This document shows, piece after piece, positions 24,042-40,666 of a stretch of 64,000 bases of DNA (positions within the stretch are counted from its first letter, which is position 1; each line of letters begins with the position of its first letter). Source of the stretch: Paludibacteraceae bacterium (GTDB lineage Bacteria; Bacteroidota; Bacteroidia; Bacteroidales; Paludibacteraceae); assembly GCA_017443145.1 (NCBI GenBank), contig JAFSPA010000009.1:124001-188000 (forward strand), written 5' to 3'. Made by a program: the position numbers and the translations under genes. Below the pieces are notes generated by a model, which saw only the letters and a program-made list of their open reading frames with translations, searched no databases and was not told the DNA's origin.

Positions 24042-26226
24042 TTCCCGCTTGTGCGTAGTACCACGGACTATAATAGCGTGACCCGTCTTCAAACTGGCAC
24101 ATCCAGTTACCTCCATTTGATTCGTACGCACTATTGAACAAGTTATTAGCCTGCGCCATTAACTCGATATTTGGCCATTTTTTCGGCAGAGGTAATTGGT
24201 AGTGCAGCGTGAGATTAGTCACCGTATAGGGCTTGAGAATCGCCTCTTCCGACATGGTATTATCCAAATACTGCTTGCTCACAGCAATCGTTTGGATATC
24301 TGCACGGAAGCCTGCATAGTTGAAGGTAAACATATTACTGAATATCACCGACGGCGAGAAAGCAATCGTCACATTACCGAAATCGACTTCTTTCTGCGGC
24401 AGTTCTTCCCAGTTCTCATCGTACATCGTTACCCAATCGGTATAATTGAGAATCTTATTGCGCGAGAGCGTCAAATTAGCCTCCCACTGGAACCACGGAG
24501 CTGGATTCCATCGACCTGTCAACTCGATACCTGCGCGGTAGCTCTTGTCCACGTTACGGGTCAGATATGCACCTGTATCGGAATACTTGCCCGTCAGAAC
24601 AAGTTGGTTCTTGTAATCCATGAAATAGATATTGATACCTGCGAACCATTTCTTGCCGGAATAGGTATAACCTAATTCGTAGTCATACAGTTTTTCGGGA
24701 CGAGGAATATCGTGTTCGCCGGCTTCGGTGAAATTCTTACGGCTGGGTTCGCGGTTGGCCAAGGCAAAATTGAAATAGACTTGGTGTCCATGGTCCTCGT
24801 AGGTGATACCGGCCTTCGGATTAAAGAAGTGGTAGTGGCGCGTCACATTCAGCGGCTTTAAATCCTCGTCGTTGATACCACCTATATGATAATAGACATA
24901 GCGGTATTGCAAGTCGCCATACAGAGTCAGGCGTCGTTGGGCCTTGTTAATCACGCGCCAATTGGCTTTGGCATAGATATTACCTTCAGCCTTAGTGCCG
25001 TTACTGCGGTAATATTCGTGCGCCGTAACATCCTGATAGATATAATCGCTCACAAGTCCCCAGTGCTTACCCATATAATGACTTCCTGAGCCGCCAATAG
25101 TCAAATCAGCCGGTTCGGAGCGATAGTTAATGGTAAACACACCGCCATAATAGTGGTTATCCAGATGTTTAAAGCGAATAAAATCCGAACTCTCAACGAA
25201 TGTCGTATCGTCAATTTCATGGTCCGGCAAACCGAAGGATTTATAATCCTTGTCCGCTTTTATCTGCTCATAGTATCCTGCGCCATGCGTATAGTGGAGT
25301 GTCGCATTCAGACTCCATTGCGGTGCAAGACGCTGATTGAGATTGAGTTGGAAGTGTTGCTGCTTGTAGTTGTCGTTTTGGTTGGGATAATACGCTACAT
25401 TACCATTTGCATCAATATACTCGCCGGCAGGATTATAGCGTCTGTCCGTAAGCAAACTCTTGGCACTAACACCATCCCACGCCATATATGTTTTCTCCGT
25501 ACCGCCAAAAGCCGAGAGTGTGACGTTGGTCTTTTTGCCATAATAACCAACGGCTCCGTAGTAGGAGAATAAGTCCGAAGAGGCACGATAGAGATAGCCG
25601 TTTGAGTTTACTTTGCTCAATCGCGCTTCCACCCAGAAATTCTTAGGTAGCTGTGCGCGAACAGCCACCCGCTCACGGAAGGTTTTATACATACCGCCGT
25701 TGAACTGTAACGCCACATGTACCGGCGTAGAGTCATTGAGCATTTGCTGAGTAGGCAACGTCGCCATGTTAATGGATGCGCCAAAAGAGGAAGAGCCGTT
25801 AGTGGAAGTACCGACACCTCGTTGCACATTAAGCGATGTAAGGGACGAAGCCATATCGGTCATGTTCACCCAGAAAACAGTTTGGGACTCAGCGTCATTC
25901 AACGGCACATCGTTTACCGTCATGTTAATACGCGTGTGGTCCGTTCCGCGAACGCGAAAATAGGTGTAGCCCACACCCAAACCATCGTCGCTGGTGGCAA
26001 GTAAAGACGGCGTGGATTGCAGCAGATACGGCAGATTCTGACCCGTGTTGTCACGATTCAGCTCCTCGCCCGATAACTTCTTGTGCGTGTCAGTAGGTTG
26101 TTCCAAACGAGCTACGACTTCCACTTGCGGAATGTCGCGGCCTTGAATTAATAACGTGTCGTTACTCTGCGCCATGAGCATTGTGCCGGACGCAAACAAA
26201 GAAAGCAGTAAAAGTTCTTTTTTCAT
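24007..26226 (-). CDS. TonB-dependent receptor under TPP riboswitch control (thiamin uptake candidate)
   Basis: 739 residues from the second ATG (26226). The in-frame ATG at 26241 lies inside the conserved 3' end of the riboswitch, and the protein from 26226 starts with a good signal peptide (MKKELLLLSLFASGTMLMAQ). The plug domain (about 30-150) includes YFRVRGTDHTRINMTVNDVP and FGASINMATLP; a barrel of ~590 residues ends in an aromatic C-terminus (GFVVQW). It lacks the N-terminal carboxypeptidase-like extension of SusC proteins. Because a TPP aptamer precedes it, the likely cargo is thiamin or a precursor, as in the OMR1 receptors known from Bacteroidetes. Confidence 0.88.
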   Translation of the reverse strand: MKKELLLLSLFASGTMLMAQSNDTLLIQGRDIPQVEVVARLEQPTDTHKKLSGEELNRDNTGQNLPYLLQSTPSLLATSDDGLGVGYTYFRVRGTDHTRINMTVNDVPLNDAESQTVFWVNMTDMASSLTSLNVQRGVGTSTNGSSSFGASINMATLPTQQMLNDSTPVHVALQFNGGMYKTFRERVAVRAQLPKNFWVEARLSKVNSNGYLYRASSDLFSYYGAVGYYGKKTNVTLSAFGGTEKTYMAWDGVSAKSLLTDRRYNPAGEYIDANGNVAYYPNQNDNYKQQHFQLNLNQRLAPQWSLNATLHYTHGAGYYEQIKADKDYKSFGLPDHEIDDTTFVESSDFIRFKHLDNHYYGGVFTINYRSEPADLTIGGSGSHYMGKHWGLVSDYIYQDVTAHEYYRSNGTKAEGNIYAKANWRVINKAQRRLTLYGDLQYRYVYYHIGGINDEDLKPLNVTRHYHFFNPKAGITYEDHGHQVYFNFALANREPSRKNFTEAGEHDIPRPEKLYDYELGYTYSGKKWFAGINIYFMDYKNQLVLTGKYSDTGAYLTRNVDKSYRAGIELTGRWNPAPWFQWEANLTLSRNKILNYTDWVTMYDENWEELPQKEVDFGNVTIAFSPSVIFSNMFTFNYAGFRADIQTIAVSKQYLDNTMSEEAILKPYTVTNLTLHYQLPLPKKWPNIELMAQANNLFNSAYESNGGNWMCQFEDGSRYYSPWYYAQAGINVHAGFVVQW

Positions 26227-26227
26227 T

Positions 26228-26292
26228 TTCTTTAGCAGCATTACCTGCTCAAGTTCAACGGGTATTATCTCAGCCCTTCGGCACCCCGAACG
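26228..26292 (-). promoter_or_regulatory. TPP riboswitch (THI element)
   Basis: Read on the minus strand: GGGGTGC (26287-26281), GGGCTGAGATAATACCC (the THI box CTGAGA at 26273-26268), then GAACTTGAGCAGGTAATGC. The last helix is AGCAG-GTAAT-G-CTGCT, equivalent to the consensus CTGG..CCAG hairpin. The aptamer fills the gap between the upstream barrel gene stop (26311-26309) and the receptor ATG (26226), leaving no room for a terminator, so control is probably by hiding the translation start. Confidence 0.93.
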
Positions 26293-26308
26293 AATTTGAG
26301 AGCGTTAA

Positions 26309-35537: not shown

Positions 35538-36581
35538 TTAAAACTGAAAAGCTATTCCCAATCCATTCTTCCCTGCACATAAAGATAATAAAACGGGGGT
35601 GTTCATTGATTTTACACATTGTTGGTTATAGGTATTTACAGATTTCTTTTTCATTACCGAACCAACAACTAATAAAGGTATGCTTCCTGCCAATGCTATG
35701 GATCCAATTGAGACGAACGCTGCGCCAGCACCGATAAGTCCATCATCACCACCTTCTTCTCCTCCCACCGCCATTAACGGAGCACCTACAACTATTCCGA
35801 ATAGTCCACCAGCGAAACAGCCCCACCCGGCGCCTGTTAATTTTTTCCCGGTGTTGAATTGTTTATACGCCGCAGGGCAGTTTTGACGCAACAGATTCTC
35901 GTATCCTCCTGCGTTCATTTTAATACCCATATATGTATATTCCTTCGCACTGTAACGCGTTACCAATCCTGTTTGTGTTGGTGAAGAAGTTTGCTTAGTT
36001 GCGGTTTTTGTTGGCACTTGTTGCTGTACTGGCTTTTGTACAGGAGCTTGACTTTGCGATTGTGTCTGTGCAGTTAGCAAGGGGTTAACAACAATTTGTT
36101 TCTTGGAATTCTTCTTTTTACTTAATAGTGCGGATGCCAAATTTTCGCACCCTTCTTGCATTTGTGTTGCAGACATGCCCATCATAGCATTATCAGTCAT
36201 TTCGACCTTACCGGTCTCCACATTTAATAATTTAACTGATACAAAGATATAATTATCACCTGCTAATGCCCCTTCAGAAACCAATATATAAGATACTCCA
36301 GTCATTTGTCCCAGTTTCTGAATTTCGTCATCGCTGACCAAACCAGTTCGTTGGAAATCTTGTTCACCCATAATCGCATCAACATCGGAACGGTCATATG
36401 CTTCAAACCCTGTGGTATTCGTGACGGCCTTTGCTAAATTACTGCGGAGCATTAATTTTTGACCATAGGTTAATTTTCCTTCATGGTCCACTGGTTCCAA
36501 AATAGCAACCTTTTTTGTTTCGAGAGCATATGTGCCAATTGTTATGGCTAACATGCTGCAAATTATGAGAATTTTTTTCAT
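35538..36581 (-). CDS. CsgG/FlgO-like protein with a Gly-rich C-terminal membrane domain
   Basis: 347 residues. A signal peptide (MKKILIICSMLAITIGTYA) precedes a CsgG/FlgO-like domain (about 20-155) with the pattern FEAYDRSDVDAIMGEQDFQ, a LGQMTGVSYILVSEG strand, and LLNVETGKVE. A Gln/Pro/Thr linker (165-205) leads to a Cys- and Gly-rich hydrophobic region (about 250-310, GWGCFAGGLFGIVVGAPLM and GAAFVSIGSIALAGSIPLL) that could form two membrane helices. It is paralogous in its N-half to the 37742-38257 protein. Likely in the envelope, function unknown; such proteins are sometimes labelled LpoB- or CsgG-like. It is last in the trio. Confidence 0.72.
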   Translation of the reverse strand: MKKILIICSMLAITIGTYALETKKVAILEPVDHEGKLTYGQKLMLRSNLAKAVTNTTGFEAYDRSDVDAIMGEQDFQRTGLVSDDEIQKLGQMTGVSYILVSEGALAGDNYIFVSVKLLNVETGKVEMTDNAMMGMSATQMQEGCENLASALLSKKKNSKKQIVVNPLLTAQTQSQSQAPVQKPVQQQVPTKTATKQTSSPTQTGLVTRYSAKEYTYMGIKMNAGGYENLLRQNCPAAYKQFNTGKKLTGAGWGCFAGGLFGIVVGAPLMAVGGEEGGDDGLIGAGAAFVSIGSIALAGSIPLLVVGSVMKKKSVNTYNQQCVKSMNTPVLLSLCAGKNGLGIAFQF

Positions 36582-36653
36582 AAATAGTTATTATTTTCAC
36601 CTACTCTTCATCGGATTTTCGGCAACCTCCGTTTTCATATTGAATTATTTGTC

Positions 36654-37718
36654 TTATTGCTTAATTTGTTGTTGAATAATGGCACTTAGTTTATGCGTCA
36701 TATCTTTGTAAGCGGTGATACCCGCATGAATATAATCGCCAGTATCTCCACCTTTGCAGGAGAGATTGTTAGCATATACTACTTGTCCGGTTTTTGCTTT
36801 TTTTATGCTTATATTAGAATCTACATATGCGAAGTATGTCGTGGCCGAGCTATATCTCACTTGACTAAATTCACGTGCTGCAGAATTGATGGTTACAATC
36901 CAGTCTGCTTCTGCATCCTTTTGCGTAAACGTACAACCTAATGATGATAAGTTGCCTTTGATTTGTTCAGCCATTGCATCATAGGAACCGTTAAATAAGT
37001 CGGAGTTACAATGAAGTGCCACATACACACCATTTTTCAAGGCGGCTTTCATTTTCATGTAACGTTGCTGCAAAACCTTTGCTTCATTCAATTGCAGACT
37101 TTCTGCGTCCGCATTGGCATCAACAGCGAGAAGGAGTTCTTGATTTTTTTCAACAGGCAGAAAATCTTTGACAATAGGCTCAATGCGAGAGCGTGCTTCC
37201 ATCTTCAGACCATTGTTCATCAACTCTTCGATATTGTCCAATTGGGTTTCAATACGGGTTAAGCCCATTGTAATTTGTTTCTCTAACTGGCGCTTAAGAT
37301 CACTCCTTTTCACATAGGCAAACGCTGCAACAATGTTACCTTTTTTATAGCTATCTATCTTTAGTCCGGGAATATCCATCTTTGTGGCTAAAGTAGTGCT
37401 GGAACTAAATTGTTGATACACCTCTTCCACGTATTTGGACATAGTTTGGTACGATTCAGAGCGTGTTTTGTCTTGCTTAACGCTATTAACATATACTTGG
37501 ATTGTAGAGACGGCCTCTGCTCGCGCAGCGGCTTTTACATGTTCCAGGCCTGCTTCCACATCCGCTCCCTTCCGTAATTCATCCATGACAAAACCAGAGA
37601 AGAATACATTTGTCGGATAGAAAGCCATTCTATTTTTAGACTCAAACCAGTCGGGTTCTTGAGCCAAGACACTCAAACCCAAACTCAAGCAAATTGTAAA
37701 AAGAAACGATTTTTTCAT
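36654..37718 (-). CDS. LPP20-like secreted protein
   Basis: 354 residues with a signal peptide (MKKSFLFTICLSLGLSVLA). After PDWFESKNRMAFYPTNVFFSG comes an LPP20-like domain (about 45-150) with VKAAARAEAVSTIQVYVNS and a final strand IVAAFAYVKRSDLKRQLE. A coiled region follows (155-235, MGLTRIETQLDNIEELMNNG). The C-terminal third (240-340) has DAEADWIVTINSAAREF and YFAYVDSNISIKKAKTGQ, resembling TolB/CsgG-like assembly folds. There is no lipobox Cys. It lies between two CsgG/FlgO-like genes, recalling the FlgO-FlgP-FlgT set of vibrios, though no flagellar genes are here. Confidence 0.7.
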   Translation of the reverse strand: MKKSFLFTICLSLGLSVLAQEPDWFESKNRMAFYPTNVFFSGFVMDELRKGADVEAGLEHVKAAARAEAVSTIQVYVNSVKQDKTRSESYQTMSKYVEEVYQQFSSSTTLATKMDIPGLKIDSYKKGNIVAAFAYVKRSDLKRQLEKQITMGLTRIETQLDNIEELMNNGLKMEARSRIEPIVKDFLPVEKNQELLLAVDANADAESLQLNEAKVLQQRYMKMKAALKNGVYVALHCNSDLFNGSYDAMAEQIKGNLSSLGCTFTQKDAEADWIVTINSAAREFSQVRYSSATTYFAYVDSNISIKKAKTGQVVYANNLSCKGGDTGDYIHAGITAYKDMTHKLSAIIQQQIKQ

Positions 37719-37741
37719 ATGTGAATTTTGGTATGTACTAA

Positions 37742-38257
37742 TTACTTACTATAATCATATTGTCGTGCTGGAATGACTATAGATGGTTTTCTACCGAGCA
37801 GTTCCATTGAGAGAGCCTTGCATACAGGAAGAATATTTGAGAACTTGCCATTGACCAATTCGCCATATTGAGAGGCAGGACTTGACATCTGGCCTGTTTC
37901 AATGTCAATGAGATATGCCTCCAAATAGAACTCGCCGCTGGCTTTGGTGATAGTCGTTACGCAGATATAGTCTGCACCTGTCATTTCACCCAGTTTGTGG
38001 ATGGTGGCTTCACTTACATTTCCTGAACGTTGGAAACCTTGTTCATTCATCATCTGGTCGATGTCGGAACGACTAAAGGCTTCGTAGCCGTCCATTTGGA
38101 CTAATGCCTTACGCATTTCGCCACGAATCATAGCCTTTTCCATTGCAGCAATAGGCTCCGAACCTTCACCGGCACGCGCCTCTAATAAGGCGACCTTCTT
38201 TTGTGCAAATCCCGTGATAGCAAATGCTAAACACAATAATGTAATAATTTTTCTCAT
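37742..38257 (-). CDS. CsgG/FlgO-like secreted protein
   Basis: 171 residues from the ATG at 38257, which opens a signal peptide (MRKIITLLCLAFAITGFAQ); the longer frame to 38308 only adds an unlikely leader. The domain carries YEAFSRSDIDQMMNEQGFQ, HKLGEMTGADYICVTTITK and YLIDIETGQ, closely parallel to the N-half of the 35538-36581 protein, so the two are paralogues. It is the first gene of the trio, 23 bp ahead of the LPP20-like gene, and has a ~355-nt leader from the promoter at 38619-38650. Function unknown. Confidence 0.72.
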   Translation of the reverse strand: MRKIITLLCLAFAITGFAQKKVALLEARAGEGSEPIAAMEKAMIRGEMRKALVQMDGYEAFSRSDIDQMMNEQGFQRSGNVSEATIHKLGEMTGADYICVTTITKASGEFYLEAYLIDIETGQMSSPASQYGELVNGKFSNILPVCKALSMELLGRKPSIVIPARQYDYSK

Positions 38258-38613
38258 AAGTATGTATATTAGTTGTTCATTTGTTCGACGAATATAAGCT
38301 AATGACATTTATCGCATAAACTTATGGGCACAATAAAAGCGTAGACCTCGTGTTGCTTACTTACACACGAGGCCTAGCATACCTAATAGTTCAAATAAAC
38401 AACAAGAAACCTACGCCGATATGACAATACCTGCCGAGAAATGGCAAGTCATATAAAGTCATACCCATAGGCATCTATTGCTCACTTTGGTTTTGAACTA
38501 TTTTGTGAAAATTGCTAGTTTTCGTGTGTCAAACACAAAGCGTCAATAAACGCTATTCAATATGTCTGAACCTACCCCGATTATGAGAGACATTTCCCTC
38601 CAGCGTAGAATTC
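38258..38613 (-). ncRNA. Candidate structured leader or small RNA upstream of the CsgG/LPP20 trio
   Basis: This follows a good minus-strand promoter and contains several perfect helices. The pair 38492-38502 with 38385-38395 (TTTGAACTATT/AATAGTTCAAA) encloses a hairpin whose arms are 38448-38454/38419-38425 and 38443-38447/38431-38435. A second hairpin, CCTCGTGT/ACACGAGG (38346-38353 with 38365-38372), is followed on the minus strand by ACGCTTTTATT, like a terminator. CTACGC at 38411-38416 can pair with GCGTAG at either 38339-38344 or 38603-38608. It lacks tmRNA, RNase P and SRP RNA signatures. It could be a 5' leader, a trans-acting sRNA, or 6S-like. Confidence 0.45.
38543..38593 (-). CDS. 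Possible 16-codon leader peptide
   Basis: In the leader of the CsgG/LPP20 trio, GGAGGG (38601-38596) is followed after two bases by ATG (38593) and 16 codons (MSLIIGVGSDILNSVY) to TGA. A Shine-Dalgarno-like sequence is rare in this window, but spacing is very short. This is a weak candidate, listed because of its position within the structured leader. Confidence 0.2.
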   Translation of the reverse strand: MSLIIGVGSDILNSVY

Positions 38614-38618
38614 GGCTG

Positions 38619-38650
38619 CAAAATTACAATTATTTTTTGAAACATGCAAA
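38619..38650 (-). promoter_or_regulatory. Promoter of the CsgG/LPP20 operon and its leader
   Basis: Minus-strand TTTG (38650-38647), 20-nt spacer (starting CATGTTTC), TAATTTTG (38626-38619). Transcription would start near 38613, giving a leader of about 355 nt. Confidence 0.78.
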
Positions 38651-38716
38651 TTTTATTGCATTTTATTGCATTTTATGAGGAAAAAGTCAGAAAAATGAAA
38701 AAAAGTTGCCCAAAAA

Positions 38717-38749
38717 TTTGCAAAAAGGCAAATGTTTAACGTATCTTTG
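38717..38749 (+). promoter_or_regulatory. Orphan promoter with no gene downstream
   Basis: TTTG 38717-38720, 21-nt spacer, TATCTTTG 38742-38749. No ORF follows; the nearest gene, gpmI, has its own promoter 300 bp further on. It is divergent from the promoter at 38619-38650. Confidence 0.65.
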
Positions 38750-38755
38750 CAGCGG

Positions 38756-38872
38756 AAAGAGCAGAAGCATGGTCGCTTAGGTGGAGAGTTGGCGGGTCGG
38801 ACGGTGCGGCATCTGTGGGACTATATCCGAGTTAGGATGGCCATGAATAATCCGCTATAGTGACGGTGGAGT
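38756..38872 (+). ncRNA. Candidate untranslated transcript (G-rich)
   Basis: The ~117 bases after the orphan promoter are strikingly G-rich compared with the AT-rich surroundings and contain only tiny reading frames. A short hairpin ATCC-GAGTTA-GGAT and GCGG/CCGC pairing options exist, but no known RNA family is recognised. The segment ends at the first of two 11-bp repeat arrays. It may be a small RNA or a degraded gene. Confidence 0.3.
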
Positions 38873-38916
38873 TATAGTTAAGTCATAGTTAAGTCATAGT
38901 TGAGTCATAGTTGAGT
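38873..38916. repeat. 11-bp tandem repeat, 4 units
   Basis: Units TATAGTTAAGT, CATAGTTAAGT, CATAGTTGAGT and CATAGTTGAGT, directly after the G-rich candidate transcript. Confidence 0.93.
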
Positions 38917-38926
38917 CAGGAGTGAA

Positions 38927-38970
38927 AACCTATCAGGAACCTATCAGAAACCTATGAGGAACCTATGGCC
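38927..38970. repeat. 11-bp tandem repeat, 4 units
   Basis: Units AACCTATCAGG, AACCTATCAGA, AACCTATGAGG and AACCTATGGCC, 10 bp after the previous 11-bp array but with an unrelated sequence. Confidence 0.93.
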
Positions 38971-39050
38971 GGTGGTGGAGAAGTCGTGTCTTACTAAATG
39001 ATTAAAAACATTCTTCTATGTGAGCATAATTCGATTTTTTTACCGATTTA

Positions 39051-39082
39051 TTTGGTACTTCCATTTTTTTGTAGTAATTTTG
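39051..39082 (+). promoter_or_regulatory. Promoter of gpmI
   Basis: TTTG 39051-39054, 20-nt spacer, TAATTTTG 39075-39082, with the usual CAGCC start region; the ATG is 34 bp further on. Confidence 0.8.
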
Positions 39083-39115
39083 CAGCCGGTTTTGAGATAA
39101 ATAACTAATCGACAT

Positions 39116-40666
39116 ATGAAAGCATTATTAATGATTCTTGATGGTTGGGGAATCGGCCAAAAAACAGCCGCCAATGCCATCTATTCAACGAACACGCCTC
39201 ACTGGACTGCGTTACTGGAGAAGTATCCGAACTCGCAACTGCAAGCCAGCGGCGAAAACGTCGGTCTGCCTGACGGACAAATGGGTAACTCGGAAGTAGG
39301 CCACCTCAATATCGGTGCCGGACGAGTAGTGTATCAGGACTTGGTGAAGATTAACCGTGCTTGCAAGGACGGTTCGATTCGCCAGAATCCGGAAATCATC
39401 TCCGCCTTCAGCCATGCGAAAGAGAGTGGTAAGAAGTTGCACATCATGGGTTTGACCTCTAATGGTGGTGTGCATAGTTCGCTGGACCATCTGTTCTACC
39501 TGCTTCAGATAGCAAAGGAATACGGTCTGGATGGTCGCACGTTTGTACATTGCTTCATGGACGGTCGTGATACGGACCCGCGTTCGGGTATCGGATTCAT
39601 CGATCAGCTTGAGGAGCAAATGGCCAAAACTACCGGTGAAATCGCAACAATTCAAGGACGGTTCTATGCGATGGACCGTGACAAACGTTGGGAGCGCGTG
39701 AAGATTGCGTATGACTGTTTGGTTCATGGCAAGGGTGCTAACTTTGAGAATATGCACGAAGCGATGCAAGCATCCTACGACGCCGATGTGACGGACGAGT
39801 TCATCAAACCGATTGTGCATGTGCGTAACGGCCAACCGCTCGCTAAAATCGAGGAAGGCGACGTGGTTATCTTCTTTAATTATCGTAACGACCGCGCACG
39901 CGAAATGACGATTGTGCTCACGCAGCAAGATATGCCGGACCAAGGCATGATGACGATTCCTAATCTGGACTACTACTGCATGACGCCTTACGAGTCCACT
40001 TTCACGGGTTTACATATCCTCTTCCCGAAAGAGAATGTGCAGAATACTCTCGGTGAAATCGTAGCAAAAGCGGGTATGAAGCAACTGCGTATCGCCGAAA
40101 CGGAGAAGTTCGCGCACGTGACATTCTTCTTCTCCGGTGGACGTGACGCACAGTTTGAGAACGAGGACAGAATTCTTATTCCGTCCCCGAAAGTGGCGAC
40201 CTACGACTTACAGCCTGAGATGTCTGCACCGGAAGTTGCTGCGGCCTTGAACGAAGCGCTGGATAGTCAGAAGTATGACTGCATCATGCTCAACTTCGCC
40301 AACGGCGATATGGTAGGCCATACAGGCGTGTATAACTCAATTCAGCAGGCCGTTGTGACGATTGATATCTGCGTGGACCGCGTAGTCAAAGCAGCTCGCA
40401 AGAACGGATATGAAGTGATTATTATTGCCGACCATGGCAATGCGGATAATGCGGTTAACCCGGACGGAACACCGAACACAGCGCACTCACTCAATCCGGT
40501 ACCGTTCGTTTATATCCCTGCTGACAGCAAGGAGAAAGACGGTAAGTTCCCATATACCTGTGAAGATGGTATCTTAGCAGACGTCGCTCCGTCTATCTGC
40601 CACATCTTAGGTATCGAACAACCTGCCGAGATGACAGGTCATTGCCTCATTCACGAAGTGAAGTAA
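39116..40666 (+). CDS. gpmI: 2,3-bisphosphoglycerate-independent phosphoglycerate mutase
   Basis: 516 residues, full length. The alkaline-phosphatase-like metal site is seen as LMILDGWG and [18 protein letters not shown] (phosphoserine at QMGNSE), with [10 protein letters not shown] and [10 protein letters not shown] near the end. The inserted phosphotransferase domain includes [11 protein letters not shown] and [17 protein letters not shown]. It interconverts 3- and 2-phosphoglycerate in glycolysis and needs Mn2+. It has its own promoter and ends 2 bp from the convergent sirtuin gene, with no terminator visible between. Confidence 0.97.

Follow-up and report, generated by a model that had tools for sequence, protein, structure and literature searches.

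Results

A structured leader upstream of a CsgG/LpoB-like gene

The window, i.e. the whole stretch of 64,000 nucleotides that we analysed, belongs to a Bacteroidota genome (1.9 Mb, contig 22 of 22) whose relatives are uncultured Paludibacteraceae of herbivore guts. On its minus strand a promoter of the Bacteroidota type, a structured leader of ~280 nt, an intrinsic terminator and a gene for a CsgG/LpoB-like protein (ATG at 38257) follow each other in this order. TTTG, 20 bases and TAATTTTG make up the promoter type known for Bacteroides, and we infer that transcription would start at ~38611. The features are as follows.

38650-38619 (-): promoter of the Bacteroidota type, TTTG-N20-TAATTTTG, from the sequence
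38647-38650 and 38619-38626 (-): promoter boxes, TTTG at -33 and TAATTTTG at -7, respectively, from the sequence
38603-38608 (-): distal 5' copy CTACGC, conserved in the genus and able to pair with GCGTAG in the middle
38539-38554 (-): small conserved hairpin AGCGTTTATTGACGCT (GGCGUUUACUUACGC in other Bacteroidales), 99% paired in the genus
38523-38529 (-): 5' strand of P1, ACACACG; covariation at E=0 under a phylogeny-aware null
38507-38523 (-): hairpin A, GAAAACUAGCAAUUUUC, with a GAAA..UUUC stem that is 97% paired
38513-38518 (-): loop strand of hairpin A, predicted from the alignment to kiss hairpin B
38466-38500 (-): strand 1, including the 5' part of P3, which pairs with strand 2 into the long arm (putative antiterminator); covariation
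38430-38448 (-): variable apical hairpin of the long arm, from the minimum free energy (MFE) fold; lost in short forms of ~140 nt
38393-38417 (-): strand 2, the switching strand GGCGUAGGUUUCUUGUUGUUUAUUU, which contains the 38411-38416 copy and pairs with strand 1 or strand 3
38370-38384 (-): hairpin B, AGGUAUGCUAGGCCU, with an AGGY..RCCU stem that shows C-G/U-A covariation
38374-38379 (-): loop strand of hairpin B, UGCUAG, predicted from the alignment to kiss hairpin A
38363-38369 (-): 3' strand of P1, CGUGUGU; covariation under the phylogeny-aware null
38338-38362 (-): strand 3, AAGUAAGCAACACGAGGUCUACGCU, which contains the 38339-38344 copy and forms the terminator stem with strand 2, by complementarity
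38331-38338 (-): U-tract of the intrinsic terminator and predicted 3' end of the short transcript; the T-run is kept in nearly all copies
37742-38257 (-): downstream gene, 171 aa, secreted CsgG/LpoB-like protein (Pfam CsgG E 2e-4, LpoB E 3e-4)

The leader folds far more stably than its composition would predict. The MFE of the minus strand from 38613 to 38255 is -110.4 kcal/mol, compared with -80.3 +/- 5.2 in dinucleotide shuffles (z -5.75), and none of 100 shuffles is as stable; the plus strand folds more weakly (z -3.7).

Other regulatory features were observed in the window. At 38735-39115 (+) lie the ~350-nt leader of a phosphoglycerate mutase gene and a divergent promoter, with TATCTTTG near 38743; this leader carries tandem repeats, AGTTAAGTCAT-like and CCTATCAGGAA-like, at about 38868-38965 and a second promoter-like TAGTAATTTTG near 39071. 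A TPP riboswitch is found at 26211-26298 (-) with 56.2 bits.

The fold is supported by covariation

The core consists of hairpin A, the long arm and hairpin B in this order, closed by P1. We aligned 96 non-redundant copies from the genus, in which 91.5% of the cells are paired in this fold and 29 of the 45 pairs show changes on both sides, giving 422 double-change cells compared with 142 in shuffles. When the partners were slid against each other, the pairing fell to 39-46%. Since the fold was derived from these same sequences, the double changes and a tree-based null weigh more than the percentage paired. Under this null, which replays the substitutions along the tree, seven pairs in the genus and nine at the order level reach E=0; all are Watson-Crick pairs and lie in P1, the kissing helix and, in the genus only, P3. 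For part of the 1:2 arm the helix of our second covariance model is one column off, and the 54% paired there is no measure of the arm; the genus alignment is.

The loops of hairpins A and B are complementary to each other over 6-7 bases. This helix is paired in 98.4% of the cells in the genus and in 99.3% over 82 divergent sequences from across the order and class, where 141 double-change cells are seen and six of the seven positions change on both sides. As both hairpins and the pairing between their loops are all supported, a kissing loop is more likely than a plain helix, an inference that we draw from the alignment. An aptamer-like fold (P1, hairpins A and B, kissing loop and long arm) is conserved in the 5' leader, which meets what a riboswitch requires of its fold. 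The small hairpin AGCGTTTATTGACGCT/GGCGUUUACUUACGC stands upstream of P1 in most of the order-level copies.

Two mutually exclusive pairings, one of them a terminator

Strands 2 and 3 can form base pairs at 24 of 25 positions, and the resulting helix ends at the U-tract. The 2:3 stem abutting TTTT has the form of an intrinsic terminator and is kept in nearly all copies. Because strand 2 is complementary to strand 3 as well as to strand 1, the pairings 1:2 and 2:3 exclude each other. Over the 96 copies 95.7% of the 2:3 cells are paired, with 20 double-change cells compared with 4.8 in shuffles. This covariation inside the genus is modest and counts against our main reading; at the order level strands 2 and 3 are exchanged jointly (GGG/CCC, GAG/CTC, AGG/CCT). 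The duplex energies agree with specific partners for both pairings, with -27.4 kcal/mol for own strands versus -22.3 +/- 0.2 for mismatched pairs in 2:3, and -25.7 versus -21.3 kcal/mol in 1:2, where the mismatched controls leave relatedness in. The element hence has two exclusive, conserved and co-varying pairings, one of which is a terminator, as a cis attenuator should; one strand with two conserved partners is the classical sign of attenuation. A local hairpin, CCTCG/CGAGG, was also considered as the main terminator and rejected: it is 88.5% paired with weak covariation, and the longer 2:3 stem fits the conservation better.

The original prediction was a structured leader or small RNA between promoter and gene, with a helix enclosing a bulged hairpin, a hairpin before a T-run, and a strand able to pair with either of two distant copies. 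All these features are present, on the minus strand, including the CTACGC/GCGTAG copies at 38603-38608, 38411-38416 and 38339-38344, of which two turn out to be parts of strands 2 and 3, while the 5' copy is specific to the genus. Both alternative pairings of the middle strand are conserved in the family, each at 97% or more over 144 genus sequences: 97% of the cells are paired with the 5' copy and 99.3% with the 3' copy. The former copy is missing from several distant members, and the latter pairing exceeds the claim, being part of the long helix directly before the U-tract. The suggested comparison of relatives showed strong compensatory change in the helices. The possible terminator holds as a conserved terminator sequence, its action in vivo being inferred. 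The idea of an attenuator or riboswitch is largely supported as an attenuator-type leader and no further, because there was no test of ligand sensing, which remains an inference at most.

Leader-peptide attenuation through a short ORF, of 27 aa here and with its ATG near 38474, would be another way to use such a leader. An ATG is kept at that place in 114 of the 144 copies. However, the frame and the length vary freely, from 3 to over 44 codons. We rejected coding potential for this ATG, as reading frames inside the element are not conserved, and consider the explanation very unlikely and already disfavoured.

The leader belongs to a multi-copy RNA family

The element is wider than had been claimed: the leader is a member of a multi-copy RNA family so far unlisted in Rfam 15. 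A DNA search gave matches in 57 of the 61 genomes of the genus, some of them to the promoter part only, and mostly several per genome. We fetched 90 copies for the first comparison. Their conservation runs from the promoter to the T-run, with TTTG/TANNTTTG found again at the promoter site in nearly all of them, and their flanks are unrelated. Our first covariance model found five good copies in the source genome; it also found copies in at least 90 of the 393 Bacteroidales genomes, spread over 51 of the 206 sampled genera. Scoring was limited to a few candidates per genome, which makes such counts minimum values. Twelve genomes that were searched more fully have 1-22 copies each, and 11 of them have 6-22. 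With the second model, genomes here and there in the remaining orders of Bacteroidia, which comprise both gut and environmental bacteria, gave a single copy each, ~140 nt long; beyond the class there were copies in only two genomes, both of one family. Carriers with a species name are plasmids from Phocaeicola dorei and P. vulgatus, together with a single one from Bacteroides finegoldii.

No Rfam 15 family matched the element in a scan of the window, a permissive scan of 37700-39150 or scans of 29 homologous loci. The strict genus pattern had no match in viral contigs; among phage records, a single unannotated one shared a match of 40 bases, and the P. dorei copy had no match there. We found no description of this RNA in the open-access literature on DUF805b, Paludibacteraceae riboswitches and Bacteroidota attenuators, bioRxiv and subscription papers being outside the search.

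Two copies (L217 and L338) were observed before RibD_C (dihydrofolate-reductase-like) genes within about 1.5 kb of matches to the rteR sRNA, and therefore probably lie on CTnDOT-like conjugative transposons.

A family of this kind could be a dispersed mobile DNA repeat (MITE-like or a recombination element), its promoter and terminator being carried by chance. The up to 22 divergent copies per genome, and those on plasmids and beside the rteR sRNA of conjugative transposons, would fit. Against it, the flanks have no shared ends, the orientation to the gene is fixed, the copies differ by compensatory RNA changes rather than by decay, and there is no reason at the DNA level for kissing hairpin loops. 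We regard this explanation as already disfavoured and very unlikely.

The copies precede genes on the same strand

Of the 215 copies with an ORF within 450 nt, 207 have this ORF on the same strand, at a median distance of 70-80 nt past the U-tract, whereas upstream ORFs are divided 125 to 65 between the strands. A free-standing sRNA family with its own promoter and terminator that acts in trans, with the downstream gene being coincidental, is unlikely given these data. Promoter and terminator are indeed kept in nearly all copies of the initial set of 90, and strands 2 and 3 could pair in trans between copies. But the position independent of genes that such an sRNA would show is not seen, and a DUF805b motif or a GGGA-loop hairpin often follows the element before the start codon. 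The small-RNA half of the original prediction is hence not favoured.

A DUF805b-like motif lies between the element and the start codon in 39 of the 144 genus copies. DUF805b RNA itself (RF02914, 36.6 bits) was observed at 36598-36632 (-), before a second CsgG-like gene (35538-36581), and has five matches in the source genome, one directly behind a short attenuator copy. In order- and class-level copies (L239, L310, L332 and L334, for example), another small hairpin, whose loop reads GGGA or GGA, was seen ~100 nt past the U-tract and just ahead of the start codon. GGGA loops with a stem of at least 4 occur in 23 of 86 copies, compared with 2.4 in shuffles, and this hairpin might be a companion element in translation or stability.

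The downstream proteins are very diverse. BspA-type leucine-rich repeats are found in 15 of 200, and other types include CsgG, PEGA, SPFH, FHA, helicase/restriction-type and abortive-infection proteins and glycosyltransferases. Among proteins of at least 120 aa, 73% look exported, compared with 43% of the other ORFs at the same loci (Fisher p 7e-12). The target genes are hence predicted to be enriched for exported proteins, using a simple and crude N-terminal rule applied alike to both groups. Three copies (L076, L080 and L245) lie near genes for SRREFFKKAAKAALP-type small proteins that resemble peptide precursors, the one near L245 being cysteine-rich.

Discussion

We consider it likely (about 0.78), in the absence of expression, probing or termination data, that this leader attenuates transcription in cis and that its folded core resembles a sensor. 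After the polymerase leaves the promoter, P1, the kissing hairpins A and B and the long arm (1:2) could form. Together they would withhold strand 2 from strand 3, and transcription would continue into the gene. Should the core or the arm fail to hold, strand 2 would pair with the newly made strand 3 into a stem of ~24 bp right before the U-tract, and transcription would end near 38333. The folds, their mutual exclusion, covariation, conservation and the position in cis are shown by comparison and computation. Function of the terminator in living cells and a deciding role of the core are inferred. The signal could be a small molecule, a protein that binds RNA or acts in antitermination, or simply kinetics, and neither it nor the favoured state is identified. 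As no ligand is known, we class the element as a riboswitch-like attenuator rather than a riboswitch.

Two points need to be weighed against the attenuator. For the full leader of the window the 1:2 state has -98.2 kcal/mol versus -87.8 for the 2:3 state, without the kissing loop; across copies nearest-neighbour energies, again omitting that loop, favour 1:2 by a median of 5 (genus) to 12 (order) kcal/mol. The terminator may therefore need a trigger or form rarely, and read-through may be the default. The order of events during transcription and the core could possibly shift this balance. The second point is that several copies closely follow an upstream gene and lack a clear promoter, among them two in the source genome (L211 and L214, on contigs 17 and 22), at ~90 nt from that gene. 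A CCGCGAGG..CGCG hairpin opens the spacer in these two, so they might be attenuators inside operons.

Targets this diverse argue against simple metabolite feedback. They fit better with a global signal or with a protein factor, both of which remain possible. A polar terminator overridden by a dedicated antitermination factor, e.g. a UpxY-type NusG paralogue, is a possible alternative, in which the kissing core would be the recognition site of the factor rather than of a small molecule; there are no binding data. In Bacteroides, NusG paralogues of the UpxY type are known to act on 5' leaders, and the very diverse targets, including surface, defence and mobile-element genes, are unlike a metabolite regulon. 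However, that 1:2 and 2:3 exclude each other and are both conserved points to a switch based on RNA at the same terminator.

Going beyond the attenuator reading, the family could be a new class of sensing leaders, in which a kissing-loop core, joined to a terminator switch of three strands, answers to one diffusible signal. We lean slightly against this bolder reading. If true, as many as about twenty genes per genome, with surface, signalling and defence functions, would be controlled in this way throughout Bacteroidia. Few RNA switches are known in this dominant gut class, and the family is abundant, backed by covariation and absent from Rfam 15. It occurs in genetically workable species, Phocaeicola dorei and Bacteroides finegoldii. 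Once identified, its ligand or partner would define an undescribed regulon of surface and defence genes.

Comparison with known systems

DUF805b RNA (RF02914) is likewise a cis element of Bacteroidota. It was rejected as the identity of our element, being a separate 35-nt motif that the element does not match. Flavo-1 (RF01705) is a multi-copy Bacteroidota RNA located at some 5' regions (PMC9723704). The leader does not match its 76-position model, and Flavo-1 was rejected as well, neither the source genome nor the searched members of the genus giving a match. Fremin and Bhatt 2021 (PMC8040213) computed 3161 RNA candidates from human microbiomes, many from Bacteroidetes, and the kissing-loop family may be among them. 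The c-di-GMP riboswitches (GEMM) are present in many copies per genome before diverse genes of surface and secreted proteins, and the regulon logic of the bolder reading would resemble theirs. They are an analogue of the regulon only, as the fold of our element differs and has no Rfam match to these families.

The closest systems are the riboswitches that attenuate transcription. Our element differs from them in having no match in Rfam 15, an order of hairpin A, long arm and hairpin B with a predicted A-B kiss, no metabolic theme in its genes and no known ligand. Kissing loops are also known in the purine and lysine riboswitch classes. Like our leader, the attenuating riboswitches place a closed multi-helix core with a loop-loop contact in the 5' leader, followed by an antiterminator and a terminator that exclude each other.
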